Shown here one piece after another: positions 3,635 to 17,875 of a stretch of DNA of 20,775 nt. Source of the DNA: a virus. The stretch lies in the IMG/VR virus record IMGVR_UViG_3300001460_000270, positions 1 to 20,775 of that record; one strand, given 5' to 3'. Position numbers and translations under genes: made by a program. Numbering within the stretch: position 1 is the stretch's first letter; each line of letters starts with the position of its first letter. The notes below the pieces were generated by a model. The model did not search any database, was not told where the DNA came from, and was given only the letters and a program-made list of their open reading frames with translations.

Positions 3635-3642
3635 TATTTTTG
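3635..3642 (+). promoter_or_regulatory. TAnnTTTG -7 element, leaderless type
   Basis: TATTTTTG matches the Bacteroidota -7 consensus TAnnTTTG. It ends exactly 4 nt before the ATG at 3647. In this class transcription starts a few nt after the box, so the mRNA would begin at or next to the start codon. No clear -33 TTTG is seen. Confidence 0.55.
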
Positions 3643-3646
3643 CGTG

Positions 3647-3739
3647 ATGATTTTTTTAGCATATAGCATACTTGGAGCTTACACTTTCTTCGCATTCAAG
3701 TGGACAGTTGAATTCATACTAAACAGGAAAAGGACTTGA
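3647..3739 (+). CDS. Membrane microprotein (30 aa)
   Basis: The frame encodes MIFLAYSILGAYTFFAFKWT followed by VEFILNRKRT. Residues 2-17 are hydrophobic and aromatic, enough for one membrane span, and the C-terminus is basic (NRKRT), predicting N-out/C-in topology. The ATG lies 4 nt after a TAnnTTTG box, the same spacing as three longer genes in the window. That shared spacing is the main reason to accept such a short frame. Small phage membrane proteins of this kind can be holin-like, lysis-regulating or superinfection-exclusion factors. No specific role can be assigned here. Confidence 0.6.
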   Translation: MIFLAYSILGAYTFFAFKWTVEFILNRKRT

Positions 3740-3766
3740 CTTTGTCATTTTTTTCGTGTAACTTCG
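3736..3766 (+). promoter_or_regulatory. Probable promoter for structured leader
   Basis: TTGAC (3736-3740) is followed 18-20 nt later by TAACTTCG (3759-3766), one mismatch from TAnnTTTG. Spacing fits the Bacteroidota -33/-7 arrangement. It overlaps the end of the membrane microprotein gene. Start of transcription would be near 3770. Confidence 0.45.
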
Positions 3767-3923
3767 CATCAGCTTAGCGAACGAACGAACATCTTCGAAT
3801 GCTTGCGGTGGCCGCATTCAAGAGTTCTTTAGATAGCTCCCAGCATTTTTATAAACTCGGCTATCATAATCGTATTAACTAAGTACGTGAGAAGAGGATG
3901 CTTGTGCCCTAACCCCAGATACT
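3767..3923 (+). ncRNA. Possible structured leader or small RNA
   Basis: About 155 nt between a probable promoter and the ATG at 3924. It holds GAAC repeated three times (3779-3790), a hairpin with GAATGC/GCATTC ends and an alternative inner stem GCGG-TGG-CCGC (about 3797-3819), and a second pair GATAGC/GCTATC. A 27-codon frame starting MLAVAAFKSS (3799-3882) overlaps both hairpins and may be an upstream reading frame. Such a long leader contrasts with the leaderless neighbours. It could be a regulatory leader of the 43-residue gene or a free RNA ending at the terminator at 4087-4116. No known RNA family recognised. Confidence 0.3.
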
Positions 3924-4055
3924 ATGAAAGAAGAAGAGTTCGACATATCATTCCTTGACCCTAAGAAGCTTAAAGAGTCAGAAGACAAACTAGAGAGCGG
4001 AGAGATTACCTGTAACATAGATTCCCCAGAGGACTGCGAGAGCTGTAGTGGCTAA
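3924..4055 (+). CDS. Small acidic Cys-containing protein (43 aa)
   Basis: The frame encodes MKEEEFDISFLDPKKLKESE and ends with a Cys-rich tail, ITCNIDSPEDCESCSG, holding three cysteines in C-x7-C-x2-C spacing. The tail could bind a metal or form a disulfide, but there are too few ligands for a classical zinc finger. The protein is highly acidic. It sits between the structured leader and a strong terminator, so it is probably transcribed alone. Function unknown; start is the first ATG of the frame. Confidence 0.6.
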   Translation: MKEEEFDISFLDPKKLKESEDKLESGEITCNIDSPEDCESCSG

Positions 4056-4086
4056 TCTCCTATAATTCATTTGGTTAGATAGGGAG

Positions 4087-4116
4087 GGGGATTGGCATTT
4101 GCCGGTCCCTTTCTTT
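4087..4116 (+). terminator. Rho-independent terminator
   Basis: GGGGATTGGC (4087-4096), loop ATTT, and GCCGGTCCCT (4101-4110) form a 10-bp stem with three G-U pairs, followed by the T-rich tract TTTCTTT. It closes the short transcript carrying the 43-residue gene, only a few nt before the next promoter box. Confidence 0.7.
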
Positions 4117-4118
4117 AT

Positions 4119-4126
4119 TACTTTTG
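4119..4126 (+). promoter_or_regulatory. TAnnTTTG -7 element, leaderless type
   Basis: TACTTTTG matches the consensus and ends 4 nt before the ATG at 4131. A TTTG at 4098-4101, inside the loop and stem of the preceding terminator, lies 17 nt upstream and may act as the -33 element. Confidence 0.6.
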
Positions 4127-4130
4127 TAGC

Positions 4131-4337
4131 ATGGACACATTGACGCAATTTGAAATGATTATCATTGCGGGTTCGATAGTTGGTACGTGGATTAAACACA
4201 GCTCCGATTACGCGCATCTGAAGGGAAGAGTGATTGCACTTGAGAATGATAACGGGGAGATGAAGGAGGACGTAAAGCAATTGCTCAGAGAGGTCCAAGA
4301 GCTGAAAGTTTTGTTGGCTAAGAACCAACTACAATAA
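4131..4337 (+). CDS. Small membrane protein with coiled coil (68 aa)
   Basis: Starting at the ATG 4 nt after the TAnnTTTG box gives MDTLTQFEMIIIAGSIVGTW and so on; a longer frame starting upstream at 4092 would run through the terminator and promoter and is rejected. Residues 8-21 (MIIIAGSIVGTWI) form one membrane segment. Residues 30-62 (LKGRVIALENDNGEMKEDVK onward) have heptad-like Leu/Val spacing typical of a coiled coil. Small phage proteins with this layout occur near lysis genes, some as spanin- or holin-like proteins, but the layout alone does not prove that. The transglycosylase gene lies 2.3 kb downstream. Confidence 0.7.
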   Translation: MDTLTQFEMIIIAGSIVGTWIKHSSDYAHLKGRVIALENDNGEMKEDVKQLLREVQELKVLLAKNQLQ

Positions 4338-4359
4338 CCCACAGCTAATTACGTTATAG
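4331..4359 (+). promoter_or_regulatory. Two-part motif in rightward orientation (site F)
   Basis: ACAATAA (4331-4337), 14 nt, CGTTATAG (4352-4359), then GTCT and the ATG at 4364. Both halves and the spacing match the sites before the leftward genes, but here on the plus strand and again in front of a gene start. CAATAA also supplies the TAA stop of the previous gene, as in site D. Confidence 0.55.
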
Positions 4360-4363
4360 GTCT

Positions 4364-4630
4364 ATGAAAGACCCTATCCATCTTTGTGATGTCGTATTGT
4401 TTGACGGCAAATCCAAGCGCGAGTATAAATTACGTGACGTTGTTCTAGCCGGAAACGATAAGAGTTTGATATGGCAATCGGACATACATCGTAATAGACT
4501 CATACAACTTGCGTTCAAAACCCCCTCCAAAGTAAAGACCCAGCGAAACAACATGCGTCTCTATATAAAGGATATTGATTTTAAAAAATATATCTCTGAT
4601 TCAAACCATAATTGGGGACTCAGTAAATAA
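4364..4630 (+). CDS. Hypothetical basic protein (88 aa)
   Basis: An 88-residue protein beginning MKDPIHLCDVVLFDGKSKREYKL with many Lys and Arg residues. The first 60 residues alternate strands (DVVLFDGKSKREYKLRDVVL) in a small beta-barrel-like pattern; the end (MRLYIKDIDFKKYISDSNHN) is less regular. No known motif. It is the only rightward gene preceded by the two-part motif typical of the leftward module, so it may be expressed with those genes and not with the structural genes around it. Function unknown. Confidence 0.7.
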   Translation: MKDPIHLCDVVLFDGKSKREYKLRDVVLAGNDKSLIWQSDIHRNRLIQLAFKTPSKVKTQRNNMRLYIKDIDFKKYISDSNHNWGLSK

Positions 4631-4631
4631 T

Positions 4632-4639
4632 TATATTTG
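4632..4639 (+). promoter_or_regulatory. TAnnTTTG -7 element, leaderless type
   Basis: TATATTTG, exactly 4 nt before the ATG at 4644. A TTGG at 4612-4615 is a weak -33 candidate. Confidence 0.6.
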
Positions 4640-4643
4640 TGCC

Positions 4644-4895
4644 ATGCAATACAAACGGGCACAGAAGGGAGCGAAGGTAAAGGGTGACCCAATCACCAAA
4701 GAGTCTAACCTAAAGGACATGGCGGTTCACATGGGCAAAGCCTTCCCTGATACAGCTATACCTGATAAGGTAATGCAGGGTTATGCTATGACATGGTTAC
4801 TTAGTGGTCGCAAAGATGACGCACTAAAAGCTGTTATTGCTCAGGAGAAGAAGCGTCAGTCAAAGGGATTACCCGCACCTAATATGAAATCATGA
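4644..4895 (+). CDS. Hypothetical basic protein (83 aa)
   Basis: The chosen start is the ATG 4 nt after the TAnnTTTG box, giving MQYKRAQKGAKVKGDPITKE; a longer frame from 4575 would overlap the previous gene and the promoter. The N-terminal 20 residues are very basic. The remainder (NLKDMAVHMGKAFPDTAIPD, then KVMQGYAMTWLLSGRKDDALKAVIAQEKKRQ) is helical. It starts a three-gene series in which successive frames overlap (ATGA at 4892; 11 nt at 5070), so the products are probably made together. No family recognised; a nucleic-acid-binding or virion role is possible because of the charge. Confidence 0.75.
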   Translation: MQYKRAQKGAKVKGDPITKESNLKDMAVHMGKAFPDTAIPDKVMQGYAMTWLLSGRKDDALKAVIAQEKKRQSKGLPAPNMKS

Positions 4896-5080
4896 AGACA
4901 GCTAAAAAATCAGAGAGAGGTAAATTAAAAGTTTCCTCAAAGAAAGTAGATGTACCATCCCCATCTGGATATCACTGGATGGAGGAGCAGGGTAGATACT
5001 ATTTAATGGAGGGGGATGATAATTCGCACCCCGGAGCTGTAGAGAAGGCATCGTTTAAGATAGCTACTCATGGCAAGTAA
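4892..5080 (+). CDS. Hypothetical protein (62 aa)
   Basis: A 62-residue protein, basic at the N-terminus (MKTAKKSERGKLKVSSKKVD) and acidic-to-neutral later, with the aromatic segment GYHWMEEQGRYYLMEGDDNS. It is coupled to the upstream gene by an ATGA overlap and overlaps the next gene by 11 nt. No motif recognised. Confidence 0.7.
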   Translation: MKTAKKSERGKLKVSSKKVDVPSPSGYHWMEEQGRYYLMEGDDNSHPGAVEKASFKIATHGK

Positions 5081-5492
5081 GAGAAAACAGTCGTATAAGT
5101 TGGGACTACCAACGAAGTATACCGACCCCGGACAGGGTAAAGAAATCAAAGCCACTGTAGAGGAGGATGCCGACAACAAGAAGAAGATGGCGAAGGACTA
5201 CAAGTCTGGCAAGCGTATCAAGCTATCTCTATTTAAGAAGCGAGTAGAGGCGAAGACAGGTACTAAAGTAAAGGCTAAGCCAATTAGTTCAGCAACTTCG
5301 TCTACGCTACAAAAGAAAGCCAAGAGTTCCGGAATTTCTTTCGGAACCCTAAAGCAAGTTTACCGACGTGGGCAGGGTGCTTGGCTTTCGTCTGGCTCAA
5401 GGAGAGGTGCGCCAATGGCAGCTTGGGCAATGGGCAGGGTCAACAGCTACATAAAGGGTTCTCGTAAACACGACACAGATTTAAGAAGTTAA
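5070..5492 (+). CDS. DUF5824-like phage protein
   Basis: A 140-residue, strongly basic protein. The first 85 residues are Lys-rich and low in complexity. The last 55 form a recognisable domain: SGISFGTLKQVYRRGQGAWL, then a Gly/Ser turn, AAWAMGRVNSYI and a final KHDTDLR. This arrangement (G-S/T-x-x-TL-K-x-V-Y-x-R-G, W-A-x-x-RV-x-S, ending D-x-DLR) matches my memory of DUF5824 proteins encoded beside structural genes of many aquatic phages. The family has no proven biochemical role that I know of. Last gene of an overlapping three-gene series. Confidence 0.7.
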   Translation: MASKRKQSYKLGLPTKYTDPGQGKEIKATVEEDADNKKKMAKDYKSGKRIKLSLFKKRVEAKTGTKVKAKPISSATSSTLQKKAKSSGISFGTLKQVYRRGQGAWLSSGSRRGAPMAAWAMGRVNSYIKGSRKHDTDLRS

Positions 5493-5500
5493 ACAACAAC

Positions 5501-5508
5501 TATATTTG
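5501..5508 (+). promoter_or_regulatory. TAnnTTTG -7 element, leaderless type
   Basis: TATATTTG, exactly 4 nt before the ATG at 5513. No good -33 element is seen upstream. Confidence 0.6.
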
Positions 5509-5512
5509 CGAT

Positions 5513-6097
5513 ATGAAAATGGTTAAAGTTGGGGGCAAAGAAGTCCCGTTTTTTGCAGCAGATGGCAAAGGGGGTAATGACCTCAAGAAAGCCATGTACG
5601 GCATGAAGATGAATAGGGCCGAATATGGTGCCAAGGTTGAGATGGGCCAAGGTGGTAAGATGTATGAGATGATGGGCGGAGGTGTCGTACAGCAATACGA
5701 TAAAGGCGGAGAAGTGGGAGACCCACCTAGAAAGTTTTTCGTGGCTTCTGGGTTTGACAATCGCGGTGACGACCCATCGGGTAAAGAGATTGCAGCAGTC
5801 TTCATGAGAACAGAAGATGGAGTAAAGCAAATCAATCCGAGAGACCTCATGGAAATCTTCCCTGACGCGGATAACATGATGCAGGCATATCGTATGGCTG
5901 GTATCGCTGTGGAGGGCGGTGACAAAGGTGTCACTTTCCCTGAGATGAACCAAGGCTCTTACAACAAATCGTTGATGGGAGAGTTTGGTGCCGAAGACAT
6001 GGACGGCCTCAGAGCTAAACTCAACATCGCTCCCGTTAAGTACGAGAGAGAAAGAGACCTCCCTAAGGTCGTTCCCGGTCTGCGAGGTGGAATGTAA
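5513..6097 (+). CDS. Gly/Met-rich phage protein (194 aa)
   Basis: The first half is unusually rich in Gly, Met and Lys, with repeated patterns such as YGMKMNRAEYGAKVEMGQGG and KMYEMMGGG followed by YDKGGEVG. The second half (about residues 70-194) is a more ordinary soluble domain containing DPSGKEIAAVFM, LMEIFPDADNMMQAYRMAGI and a basic C-terminus. Proteins with the KMY/GGK style of repeat are frequent in phages of Bacteroidota but have no assigned function known to me. The ATG at 5513 is preferred over the Met two codons later because it keeps the 4-nt distance to the promoter box. It converges on the secreted-protein gene with no spacer between the two stop codons. Confidence 0.75.
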   Translation: MKMVKVGGKEVPFFAADGKGGNDLKKAMYGMKMNRAEYGAKVEMGQGGKMYEMMGGGVVQQYDKGGEVGDPPRKFFVASGFDNRGDDPSGKEIAAVFMRTEDGVKQINPRDLMEIFPDADNMMQAYRMAGIAVEGGDKGVTFPEMNQGSYNKSLMGEFGAEDMDGLRAKLNIAPVKYERERDLPKVVPGLRGGM

Positions 6098-6612: not shown

Positions 6613-6646
6613 CTTATACAACGCATTAAGATTCCGTATATTGTGC
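6613..6646 (-). promoter_or_regulatory. Two-part leftward motif (site E), shared with a rightward start
   Basis: On the minus strand: GCACAATA, 15 nt, CGTTGTATAAGG, about 24 nt before the secreted-protein ATG. On the plus strand the same bases read TATATTGT (6637-6644), a degraded TAnnTTTG placed 4 nt before the transglycosylase ATG at 6649. The two divergent genes may therefore share or compete for this element. Confidence 0.45.
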
Positions 6647-6648
6647 CC

Positions 6649-7200
6649 ATGCTTGTAAAACGCGGAAAAAAATTTCAAAGGGTCTCCAGAGTAAGCATGA
6701 GAGAGGGTGGTTTAGTAGACTGGCCTCCAAGCGGAGCGAAGTCTTTTGATTCTATTCTGGACAGACAGATATATAAGGAATCCACGGGAAACCCCTTGGC
6801 TGAGTCTCCAGCTGGTGCGAGAGGATTAGCTCAGATAATGCCCGGAACAGAGCAGTACCTAAAGGAGAAGGGAATGCTTCGAGAAGATTTCGACCCATTC
6901 AACCCTGAGCACTCGAAAGAAGCGCAACAGGTTTATATGAATAGTCTAATGAACAGGAGCTGGAATAAAGGCTCTGATGAGATTAAGATTGCTAAAGCAT
7001 TGGCAGCATATAACTATGGCCCTACAGCTACAGTTCGCGTGCTTAACAAAGCTAAAGAACAGGGCAAGGATATATATGAATCTCTTGACTGGATTGAAGA
7101 ATTACCCCTTGAGACTAGAGACTACATATCTAAGATACTTGGGTATAATGAAAATTTTGAAGACCAGTACGGAAGTTACAGACTAAGGTTTGATAGCTAG
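6649..7200 (+). CDS. Lytic transglycosylase (SLT-type)
   Basis: Starting at the ATG at 6649 gives 183 residues; the longer frame from 6598 would cross the shared promoter element. Residues about 36-140 are a lysozyme-like SLT domain: YKESTGNP with the likely catalytic Glu44, SPAGARGLAQIMPGT (53-67), and AAYNYGPTATV (119-129), the counterpart of the family's AYNAGP. Such enzymes cleave the MurNAc-GlcNAc bond of peptidoglycan with 1,6-anhydro product formation. The first 20 residues are basic, with no signal peptide, so it is either a virion-carried enzyme for DNA entry or a holin-dependent endolysin; the location near structural genes favours the former slightly. Its TAG stop shares bases with the stop of the opposing regulator gene. 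Confidence 0.85.
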   Translation: MLVKRGKKFQRVSRVSMREGGLVDWPPSGAKSFDSILDRQIYKESTGNPLAESPAGARGLAQIMPGTEQYLKEKGMLREDFDPFNPEHSKEAQQVYMNSLMNRSWNKGSDEIKIAKALAAYNYGPTATVRVLNKAKEQGKDIYESLDWIEELPLETRDYISKILGYNENFEDQYGSYRLRFDS

Positions 7201-7631: not shown

Positions 7632-7650
7632 TATATTTGTTTCAAATTTA
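7632..7650. promoter_or_regulatory. Back-to-back TAnnTTTG promoters in an inverted repeat
   Basis: TATATTTG (7632-7639, plus strand) is followed by TTT and CAAATTTA (7643-7650), which is TAAATTTG on the minus strand. Together they form a near-perfect palindrome. The plus box precedes the ATG at 7656 and the minus box precedes the ATG at 7625, each by about 16-17 nt. The two promoters overlap, so polymerase at one would block the other, and a dimeric regulator could bind the palindrome. Confidence 0.65.
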
Positions 7651-7655
7651 AGAAC

Positions 7656-8492
7656 ATGGCTACTCTTAGCGGAACTAGATTGAAAGATACATACACTGGG
7701 TTGCTTAAAACCAGTGATGCGGGTAACTTTACCGGAACACTAAAGGTTATTCAAGACGGCTCTGGAAATGAATCAGCTCTGTCTTTATCTACATCCACCG
7801 TAAAGGCAGCTGCTTTGCAGGTTAATACTATTACAGGGGGTAGTTCAAGTTCAAAGGCTTTAGTGTGGAATGACAGCACAAAAGCAATCGAGTATAGAAC
7901 CTTCCCATCTAACTCTACGGTTAGCACAACCGTTGGTGGAAGTGCTGCGCCTACCATAACCATCGAAGCCGCTGACGCATCAAGCACTACGATTACACTG
8001 GCTGCAACTGACGGCTTGAGTTACAGTCGAGCAAGCAACGTAATTACTATTGGGAGGGGTAATGAAACAATCAACCAGCTTAGTACAAGCACCACTCTCC
8101 TTGCCAGTAATTCTGGAAGCACGTATTACTTAAACTCTGTTAGTGGGTTTGTTATTACATTGCCTGCTGCGGCTCCCGGAGTTGTTTTTAAATTCATCAT
8201 TATTGGAGCGAATACTGGAAACATAAGTATTGTCACAGCAACAGGTGATTATGTTTATGGTAAGGCTGTTGTAACTTCTAACTCAGCTACTGGTCAATCT
8301 AGAGTGGGAACCGTGACCCAGAACAACTCTCGCAACGAAATAAATCTAGACCCTGATTCGACTAGTAGCGGTGGTCGTCAGGGCGATGTTGTCGATATTG
8401 TTGCTGTAGACTCTACTAACTGGTTAGTGACCGCTAATCTTACAACATCTAGCACTACAGTAGCTGCTGTATTAGTTATGCCTGCCCCATAA
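7656..8492 (+). CDS. Virion structural / appendage protein (278 aa)
   Basis: The protein begins MATLSGTRLKDTYTGLLKTS, a start seen in many marine phage structural proteins that continue with a repetitive Ser/Thr/Gly-rich beta domain, as here. The chain is almost free of Cys and Trp and is strand-rich throughout (TITIEAADASSTTITLAATD, then FVITLPAAAPGVVFKFIIIG with the later NISIVTATGDYVYGKAV). No enzymatic motif is present. A tail-fibre, head-fibre or decoration protein are all possible; I cannot choose between them. It is the first gene of the rightward series that leads to the terminase and is transcribed from the bidirectional element at 7632-7650. Confidence 0.65.
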   Translation: MATLSGTRLKDTYTGLLKTSDAGNFTGTLKVIQDGSGNESALSLSTSTVKAAALQVNTITGGSSSSKALVWNDSTKAIEYRTFPSNSTVSTTVGGSAAPTITIEAADASSTTITLAATDGLSYSRASNVITIGRGNETINQLSTSTTLLASNSGSTYYLNSVSGFVITLPAAAPGVVFKFIIIGANTGNISIVTATGDYVYGKAVVTSNSATGQSRVGTVTQNNSRNEINLDPDSTSSGGRQGDVVDIVAVDSTNWLVTANLTTSSTTVAAVLVMPAP

Positions 8493-12213: not shown

Positions 12214-12221
12214 TATATTTG
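12214..12221 (+). promoter_or_regulatory. TAnnTTTG -7 element upstream of portal
   Basis: TATATTTG matches the consensus exactly, with the portal ATG 25 nt further on, giving a leader of about 20 nt. It shows that the portal can be transcribed separately from the terminase. Confidence 0.6.
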
Positions 12222-15129: not shown

Positions 15130-17316
15130 ATGCCTGTAAGTGTAACCCAGCCTAAGAATGTAAAAATATCCAGCCAGCACGGTGACATCATTAAGGTGTC
15201 TATTGTTAAGGGTGGGTCGGATATTCAAGTAGTCACTCTTAATCAGGTGGCGAACAACTCTGTCACTATTGGTGGTGCGATTGGTGCTGGACCTGCTGGG
15301 GCGACAGGCGCACAAGGCCCTACTGGTGCTACAGGTCCTACAGGCGCTACTGGTCCTGCTGGGGCACAAGGCCCCGCTGGTCCTGATGGTGCTGACGGTT
15401 CTGACGGTTCGGGGGGAGCTACTGGTCCTACTGGTCCTACTGGTCCTACTGGTCCTACTGGCCCTGCTGGCCCTGCTGGTTCGGATGGTTCGGACGGCGC
15501 TGCTGGTCCAGTTAGTATAGTTAGAAATTTTGCGGTTACGGTAGTAAATAGCGGTGGTAACAAATTCGCAATAGATGGAGTAACCCAAGCTAGCTTAAAA
15601 CTCCTTAGGGGGCACAGGTATGTTTTCAGTCAATCTGAAGGCAGTAACTCTAATCACCCCATAGCTATACAGACAGCCGCAGGTTCTTCTTATACTAGCG
15701 GTTGGACCTACACTGGAACCCCCGGAGAATCTGGTGCCAACGGTAGTTTTGTCGTTCCAAATGACGCACCATCTTCTCTTCAGTATTACTGCACGGTTCA
15801 TGGGTATGGAATGGGTGCTCCCATTACTATTGAGAATCTACAGTCTGGTGCTGATGGAGCTGACGGAGCAGATGGTAGTAATGCCACAACGGAAACGTTA
15901 GACACTGCAATCAGTGTGTTTCTACCAGACGGAGGTAACTTTGGAAAGTTTTCTCATACCGACCAAATAGCTGTAGGTGACGGCAACAAGACAGCCATTG
16001 ATATAATTAGAGAGGCCCTTGTTCAGTTAGGCCAGATTGCAACTCCTTCAATAACTCTCACGCCTAGTAGCGTTGGTTTTAACGACACGGCTATAAGTAA
16101 TGCTACGGCGCAGATACAAGCGTCTGTAACAAACCCCAACCATTCTCAAGGTTCCACGATTACCTTTAAGTTTTACAAGAAGATTGGGACTGGTGCTTTT
16201 AGTTTGATTCATACTCAAACTGGAGTTACTGGAACTTCAGCCAGCTATACTCACAGTGAGACTTATAGTTTTGCTTTTGCTACAGAGAATCCGACTAGCG
16301 AGCACATCACTTGGAAGGTAAGTGCAGAAGAACCATCCAATGGTCAGGGTGAGGTGTTCAGTGAGGAAAAAGAATATGACCCTGTATATATTCCACCAAG
16401 ACTAATAAAGACCAATAACACTAATGGTATTGAGCTTCAGAGGACCACAAACGCCACGGCTACAGTATCCTCTGATGAGAATGATTCTAATCGTCAGTTA
16501 TATAACGGTCAAAGCAATCTCAAGTTTAAGGTTGAAGTTGAAACAAGTGGTGTTGCTCTGGATAGCTACGCAGTTCTAAATGCAAGTAATGCTCTAGTTG
16601 GAAACGTAGTAGACATATCTGGTGAAAGCCTTGACTCTAGCGGTAGAACCGGGACATTCACTGTCGCTATAGATGATGGCGATGTTGCTATTGGTGACTC
16701 TAACACATATAAAGTAAAAGTTTGGGATAGTGTAAGGCCCTACTCTAGCCTTAGCTCTACTGAGTGTGATTTTGAATCTGCATCTTACTCAGTAAATAGA
16801 GTGCCCGTTAAACTGGTGCTGAGTTCCACGGCTTTAACAGCCGCAAGCAGCGACGGAAACTTTCAAGACATGTATGATGGGTCCACCTCTAATAACGGTG
16901 TATCATCCTATCCTGAGAATATAACCTCTACCGGGGACTTACTTGATGCCAACACATCTCAGCTGAGCGTCAGTATGCTTGTGAATAATGCGCAGCAAAC
17001 AGGAGACTATGTTTATGTCTTTGTTCCTTCATACTATTTTTCAAATGGTAGTGGGGGTTATCAGGATTTAACAGGAGGCGGTAATGTCAATCAAGATTTC
17101 TTTGAGGATTTTGGGGGTAACAATTACTCACAAAGAATAGAAAGTCCACCACAAACAACTGGTGACTTTTGGCTTTTAAAATCAGCATTAAATTTGCAAA
17201 TTCAATTCGGTACAGCCGGCAATAAAATTCCATTTCATGTCTTAAGGCTTTACGAACCACTAGCCAATATTGGTTTGAGAGGAAGCTATTACCTAATAAG
17301 AAATACGGAATCTTAA
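15130..17316 (+). CDS. Collagen-like fibre with cupredoxin-like domain
   Basis: A 728-residue appendage protein. Residues 1-50 form an N-terminal beta module. Residues 54-128 are 25 uninterrupted Gly-X-Y triplets, mostly GPT, GPA, GAT and GSD, which would form a trimeric collagen-like shaft. Residues 130-236 resemble a cupredoxin-like domain found in marine phage fibres: [20 protein letters not shown], then [12 protein letters not shown]176, C221, H224 and M228 have the His-Cys-His-Met order of type 1 copper sites. A short second run ([10 protein letters not shown], 240-249) follows, then about 450 residues of strand-rich Ig-like segments ([20 protein letters not shown] onward). No lipobox or signal peptide. 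A receptor-binding tail or head fibre is likely; actual copper binding is not proven. Confidence 0.75.
15424..15459 (+). repeat. Tandem 9-bp repeat in collagen-like region
   Basis: GGTCCTACT occurs four times in a row, encoding four GPT triplets, inside a longer run of related GGNCCTGCT/GGTGCTACT units. Such near-identical units can change in number by slippage or recombination and so alter the length of the fibre shaft. Confidence 0.85.
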
Positions 17317-17860: not shown

Positions 17861-17875
17861 AACTGCTTATATTTG
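17846..17875 (+). promoter_or_regulatory. Complete -33/-7 promoter upstream of fibre gene
   Basis: TTTG (17846-17849), 18 nt, TATATTTG (17868-17875). This is the only site in the window with a good -33 TTTG at near-ideal spacing. A leader of about 25 nt with AAAGGA just before the ATG at 17903 follows, an unusually Shine-Dalgarno-like site for this genome. Confidence 0.65.

Follow-up and report, generated by a model that had tools for sequence, protein, structure and literature searches.

About half of the host-type promoters in the group of uncultured Bacteroidota phages studied here are placed exactly 4 nt before an ATG, an arrangement under which the mRNA would begin at its own start codon. 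In the window, i.e. the whole 20,775-base virus record that was analyzed, four boxes are placed in this way, and we consider it very probable that they are sigma-ABfr type promoters giving rise to leaderless mRNAs from 4131, 4644 and 5513, and possibly 3647. To the extent that sequence can show it, at least three of the four sites bear out the leaderless reading. An earlier, sequence-only reading had proposed leaderless translation in a single gene class, including a degraded box before the gene at 6649. Its leaderless interpretation is favored by the sharp 4-nt peak, the published start site, the near restriction to ATG and a pyrimidine at -1 followed by A at +1, while the single gene class and the 6649 box did not stand, and 3647 is the weakest case. 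All four boxes are present where that reading had placed them, together with three boxes that precede leadered genes:

3635-3642, plus strand: TATTTTTG box, followed by spacer CGTG (4 nt) and ATG 3647; weakest of the four
3647-3739, plus strand: 30-aa ORF that may encode a small single-TM protein, act as a leaderless upstream ORF or be spurious
4119-4126, plus strand: TACTTTTG box, followed by spacer TAGC (4 nt) and ATG 4131
4131-4337, plus strand: gene for a 68-aa protein with an N-terminal hydrophobic segment and a coiled-coil-like tail
4632-4639, plus strand: TATATTTG box, followed by spacer TGCC (4 nt) and ATG 4644
4644-4895, plus strand: gene for an 83-aa basic protein, predicted leaderless
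5501-5508, plus strand: TATATTTG box, followed by spacer CGAT (4 nt) and ATG 5513
5513-6097, plus strand: gene for a 194-aa glycine/lysine-rich protein, predicted leaderless
7632-7639, plus strand: TATATTTG box, leadered comparison, 16 nt to ATG 7656
12214-12221, plus strand: TATATTTG box, leadered comparison, 24 nt to the portal gene ATG 12246
17868-17875, plus strand: TATATTTG box, leadered comparison, 27 nt to ATG 17903

The four boxes all match TAHHTTTG, the -7 element of Bacteroidota primary-sigma (sigma-ABfr) promoters, and a 71.5-kb contig shares both the terminase and the four boxes with the window. If +1 lies 4 nt past the box, the leaders at 7656, 12246 and 17903 are 12, 20 and 23 nt long, within the 12-25 nt given for them earlier. 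Elsewhere in the window, we noted an ArdC-like anti-restriction protein (ArdcN plus a zincin-like metallopeptidase domain) on the minus strand at 1350-2270, and a probable tail/adhesin protein at 15130-17316, with collagen-like Gly-X-Y repeats at about 15290-15500.

The site at 3647 is uncertain because its -1 base is a G, the sole G among the 70 non-redundant 4-nt sites of the phage group, and because homologues of the ORF were found nowhere beyond the 71.5-kb contig carrying the same sequence. Both features would also fit a box that serves a non-coding or regulatory transcript, acting either through a leaderless 30-codon upstream ORF or as the leader of 3924, the next gene, which lacks a box; in E. 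coli and mycobacteria, small leaderless ORFs are known to affect downstream genes (PMC9031893). On the other side, the ORF resembles an intact single-TM peptide, and the window, scanned for Rfam families and for tRNAs, contained neither, the lack of an Rfam match counting against such a role. We regard a regulatory role as a serious contender, if somewhat less likely than not, and it is compatible with leaderless transcription at the other three sites.

Relatives were gathered via the terminase and the 5513 protein, giving about 110 phage loci (about 1.5 Mb), with six records read whole or nearly whole. In a first set of distances from TAHHTTTG to an ORF's ATG, there were 63 sites at 4 nt, compared to 6 and 13 at the adjacent distances of 3 and 5 nt, and permuted control motifs in this same set lacked the 4-nt peak. 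After removal of near-copies, the non-redundant sites numbered 70 at 4 nt versus 6 at 3 nt and 12 at 5 nt, followed by a trough of about 21 sites in total over 6-13 nt and a broad hump of 9-15 sites per position at 15-22 nt, so that the sharp 4-nt peak expected by the sequence-only reading was indeed found. The peak is spread over many proteins, with 28 protein families having a site at 4 nt and at most 10 at any other single distance (a merged cluster of 87 members, in which portal and low-complexity proteins were mixed, was left uninterpreted). Whole-record counts in 17 phage records gave 57 sites, mostly on the terminase strand, versus 7 for the reversed pattern, a ratio that serves as a guide only, because this control differs in dinucleotide make-up, and we therefore prefer the distance distributions. 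In the six records, 33 of the 69 gene-proximal sites that could be classed as leaderless or leadered were of the leaderless type. At some loci (L110-L112 in G015, L100-L103 in G012) a terminator-like hairpin with a T-run is immediately followed by a box, at 4 nt from the ATG in some cases and at 15-20 nt in others, forming terminator-promoter fusions.

Individual genes retain their own spacing. Orthologues of 4131 (L084, L011, L090, L091) keep 4 or 5 nt despite diverged flanks, as do those of 5513, and the 4644 orthologues keep 3 or 4 nt at about 45-48% protein identity, again with diverged flanks. Orthologues of 7656 mostly have 15-18 nt, with a single switch to 4 nt, and those of the portal (12246) mostly 15-26 nt, with one sub-branch at 5 nt. 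Of the families with three or more classed members, 10 had leaderless sites throughout, 5 had leadered sites throughout and 5 had both. What is conserved is each gene family's spacing, with no common functional class. The earlier idea of one gene class did not survive, as the sites precede unlike proteins: in the 71.5-kb relative these range from small basic proteins and a membrane/coiled-coil protein to a 459-aa virion-like protein and the product of a 3322-aa protein gene. We rejected a single functional class for the leaderless genes, given that protein lengths did not differ and the excess of K/R at the N-terminus slight (P = 0.01). The 68-aa protein of 4131 looks holin- or spanin-like on inspection, and Pfam and PHROG searches with it returned no match. 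Very long genes also occur behind such boxes, namely the 3322-aa protein gene (G001, about 31833-41801, minus strand), preceded by a 4-nt box, and a 3880-aa gene with a 5-nt box in G006; their scanned parts gave no confident PHROG match.

One could argue that genome compaction alone accounts for these sites, with 4 nt as the shortest distance between promoter and gene and no selection for leaderless initiation. Phage genomes are compact, and some boxes directly follow terminator-like hairpins; compaction, however, predicts a graded fall-off, instead of the drop to 12 sites at 5 nt and to about 21 over the whole of 6-13 nt, with a renewed rise to 10-15 per position at 15-20 nt, and gene families keep a single mode. 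We consider this explanation unlikely.

Published start sites in flavobacteria indicate where these transcripts should begin. In Flavobacterium johnsoniae, the -7 element spans -12 to -5, with many transcripts starting 4 or 5 nt past it (PMC6847099), in agreement with the earlier suggestion that transcription starts a few nucleotides past the box. With that spacing, a 4-nt spacer therefore sets +1 on the A of the ATG, where transcription should start, although the spacing is that of F. johnsoniae and may not be that of the phage host. Start codons at 4 nt were ATG in 79 cases, GTG in 5 and TTG in none; these starts are predictions, and orthologues align from the same Met. The base at -1 was a pyrimidine in 63 of 70 4-nt sites (90%), compared to 53 of 120 leadered sites (44%) at the same offset from the box (Fisher P = 9e-11). 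A pyrimidine at -1 followed by a purine at +1 is the usual initiator, which the -1 pyrimidine and the A of ATG at the 4-nt sites fit. This signature is diagnostic within the phages only, because leadered genes in one host family (that of G057) share the pyrimidine. In leadered promoters of these phages the fifth base past the box, on which +1 would fall, is an A in 60% of cases, a weak hint because A is enriched across the fifth to seventh positions. No clear -33 TTTG motif emerged in the aligned upstream regions of the 70 4-nt or 120 leadered sites; the element is weak in F. johnsoniae as well (PMC6847099).

Transcripts could instead start 1-3 nt upstream or elsewhere, leaving the ATG near, not at, the 5' end. 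The 5-nt sites among orthologues of 4131 and 5513 and in the portal sub-branch lend this some weight, but a spread of start sites would call for a much less sharp peak at 4 nt, the pyrimidine and A suit a start on the A, and the published spacing is itself 4-5 nt, which makes short leaders improbable. That the four boxes are random matches is hardly credible: the window contains four TAnnTTTG-N4-ATG sites versus 0.22 expected (order-2 Markov model, maximum 2 in 400 runs; Poisson P = 8e-5 for at least four, 0.0014 for at least three), an expectation that would allow one of the four, 3647, to be random, while the group evidence speaks against chance and the conservation among orthologues refutes it for 4131, 4644 and 5513.

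A leaderless origin of these mRNAs is thus the preferred reading, in which a Bacteroidota phage would use the boxes as promoters of the primary-sigma (sigma-ABfr) type. The host's RNA polymerase would presumably initiate 4 nt past TAHHTTTG, on the A of the ATG, so that 4131, 4644, 5513 and possibly 3647 would be transcribed as leaderless mRNAs, and ribosomes would initiate on the 5'-terminal AUG without an upstream signal. The choice between no leader and one of about 12-22 nt appears to be fixed gene by gene, and the advantage may lie in compact promoters and in initiation without need for a leader.

The window also carries a second promoter type, CAATAA-N14/15-CGTTA, overlooked by the sequence-only reading, which precedes minus-strand genes (608-632, 1231-1255, 2322-2347, 2693-2718) and bears on two plus-strand genes:

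4332-4356, plus strand: second-type promoter, CAATAA (4332-4337)-N14-CGTTA (4352-4356), 7 nt before ATG 4364
4364-4630, plus strand: gene for an 88-aa protein behind this promoter
6619-6643, minus strand: divergent promoter element of gene 6589-6098, CAATAT-N14-CGTTG, with the same arrangement in G002/L083 and L011
6649-7200, plus strand: lytic transglycosylase (SLT domain, PF01464, 9.7e-17), excluded from the box-led leaderless genes

Of 54 co-occurrences of CAATAA and CGTTA among close relatives, 30 had a gap of 14 or 15, and control motifs were flat. CGTTA usually lies 14-51 nt from the start codon, and exactly 7 nt in all seven close-spaced sites (4364 and its orthologues), which may represent a second leaderless placement. 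The letters of the "degraded box" before the transglycosylase are present (6637-6651 reads TATATTGT-GCCC-ATG); TATATTGT at 6637 is the reverse complement of the CAATAT of the minus-strand element, and is better read as part of that promoter, which is kept in relatives. An alternative-sigma promoter for 6649 (SM5, TAnnTTGY) was also rejected as a general class, as its 13 sites at 4 nt were 6649 orthologues, intragenic positions or scattered cases. That the phages encode their own sigma factor for the CAATAA/CGTTA promoters was likewise set aside, as G001, G002 and G006 gave no match to Sigma70_r2 or Sigma70_r4_2, and Sigma70_r2 was found only in G013. In that related phage the domain (54346-54552, E = 2.4e-20) lies in a 307-aa frame; the window's nearest relatives did not show it. 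An ECF-type motif with a CGT box described in F. psychrophilum (PMC9723704) offers a lead to the second promoter type, and nothing firmer.

Beyond the phage group, and with regard to a place in the order Crassvirales, the terminase is distant from crAss-like phages (22-34% over part of its length) and matches Flavobacterium elemo, Pachyviridae, Pervagoviridae and Maribacter phages better (30-46%). In 50-kb stretches of six more distant isolates (phi46:3, Calle_1, phi14:2, Gundel_1, Panino and crAss001), no boxes lay 3-5 nt before predicted genes and 26 lay at 13-30 nt; the corresponding counts were 3 versus 10 in elemoA and 1 versus 9 in the Manatee Spring phage. ElemoA (NC_055852), a culturable relative that grows on Flavobacterium sp. 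BAL314, has 4-nt sites before 20173 and 4450. Across 80 Bacteroidota-class genomes, the 4-nt pattern was usually about 2-fold, and in some cases 5- to 10-fold, over the reversed control (early host samples from G038 and G044 had been chosen near known matches, hence were biased, and were excluded from rates). In two Bacteroidota families (G057, G097, G098 and G034, G099, G100), TAHHTTTG-N4-ATG exceeded its control about 5- to 7-fold in three of three genomes each, well above what is usual in the sampled class. Distances in the first of these cluster at 3-7 nt, and leaderless or near-leaderless starts may be its main mode. An anti-Shine-Dalgarno check in the host genomes rich in such sites did not locate the 16S 3' end there. 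We conjecture that phage and host match in leaderless richness; the broader proposal, that the phages run a gene-specific two-mode translation program matched to host families with mainly leaderless or near-leaderless starts, as against 4-6% in the few species studied, is tentative and rather doubtful.

Bacteroidota lack Shine-Dalgarno signals, and leaderless mRNAs have been deemed, from few species, too rare to explain how starts are chosen. A sharp 4-nt peak in phages and some host families offers a predictor of leaderless genes that needs only sequence, fixes gene starts in phages whose small genes resist calling, and opens start-codon choice in Bacteroidota to tests with reporters or during infection of a host. 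The mechanism itself is known; we found no description of its prevalence in this phage group in the open-licence papers searched.

Leaderless mRNAs of flavobacteria share with the phages the -7 box TAnnTTTG, the start-site spacing and the AUG start. In flavobacterial hosts, however, they are a minor mode, with 87% of leaders in F. johnsoniae being longer than 10 nt (PMC6847099) and leaderless transcripts making up 5.5% of mapped mRNAs in F. psychrophilum (PMC9723704), whereas in the phage group they correspond to about half of the gene-proximal boxes. Bacteroides thetaiotaomicron belongs to the same phylum and has the same type of sigma factor, but its short leaders (<10 nt, 3.7%; PMC7366714) are rare and scattered. 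The TA-led leaderless genes of Actinobacteria and Deinococcus-Thermus likewise reveal themselves by a fixed distance from -10 element to start, although the sigma motif differs; the same survey assigned hardly any leaderless genes to Bacteroidetes, and its authors note that their search was confined to Pribnow-like boxes (PMC3160421). Among phages, the mRNAs of lambda cI and other leaderless transcripts also start at the AUG (PMC3160421, PMC9031893), yet lambda cI is a single well-studied case in E. coli, whereas here the arrangement extends to many genes per genome in phages of Bacteroidota.
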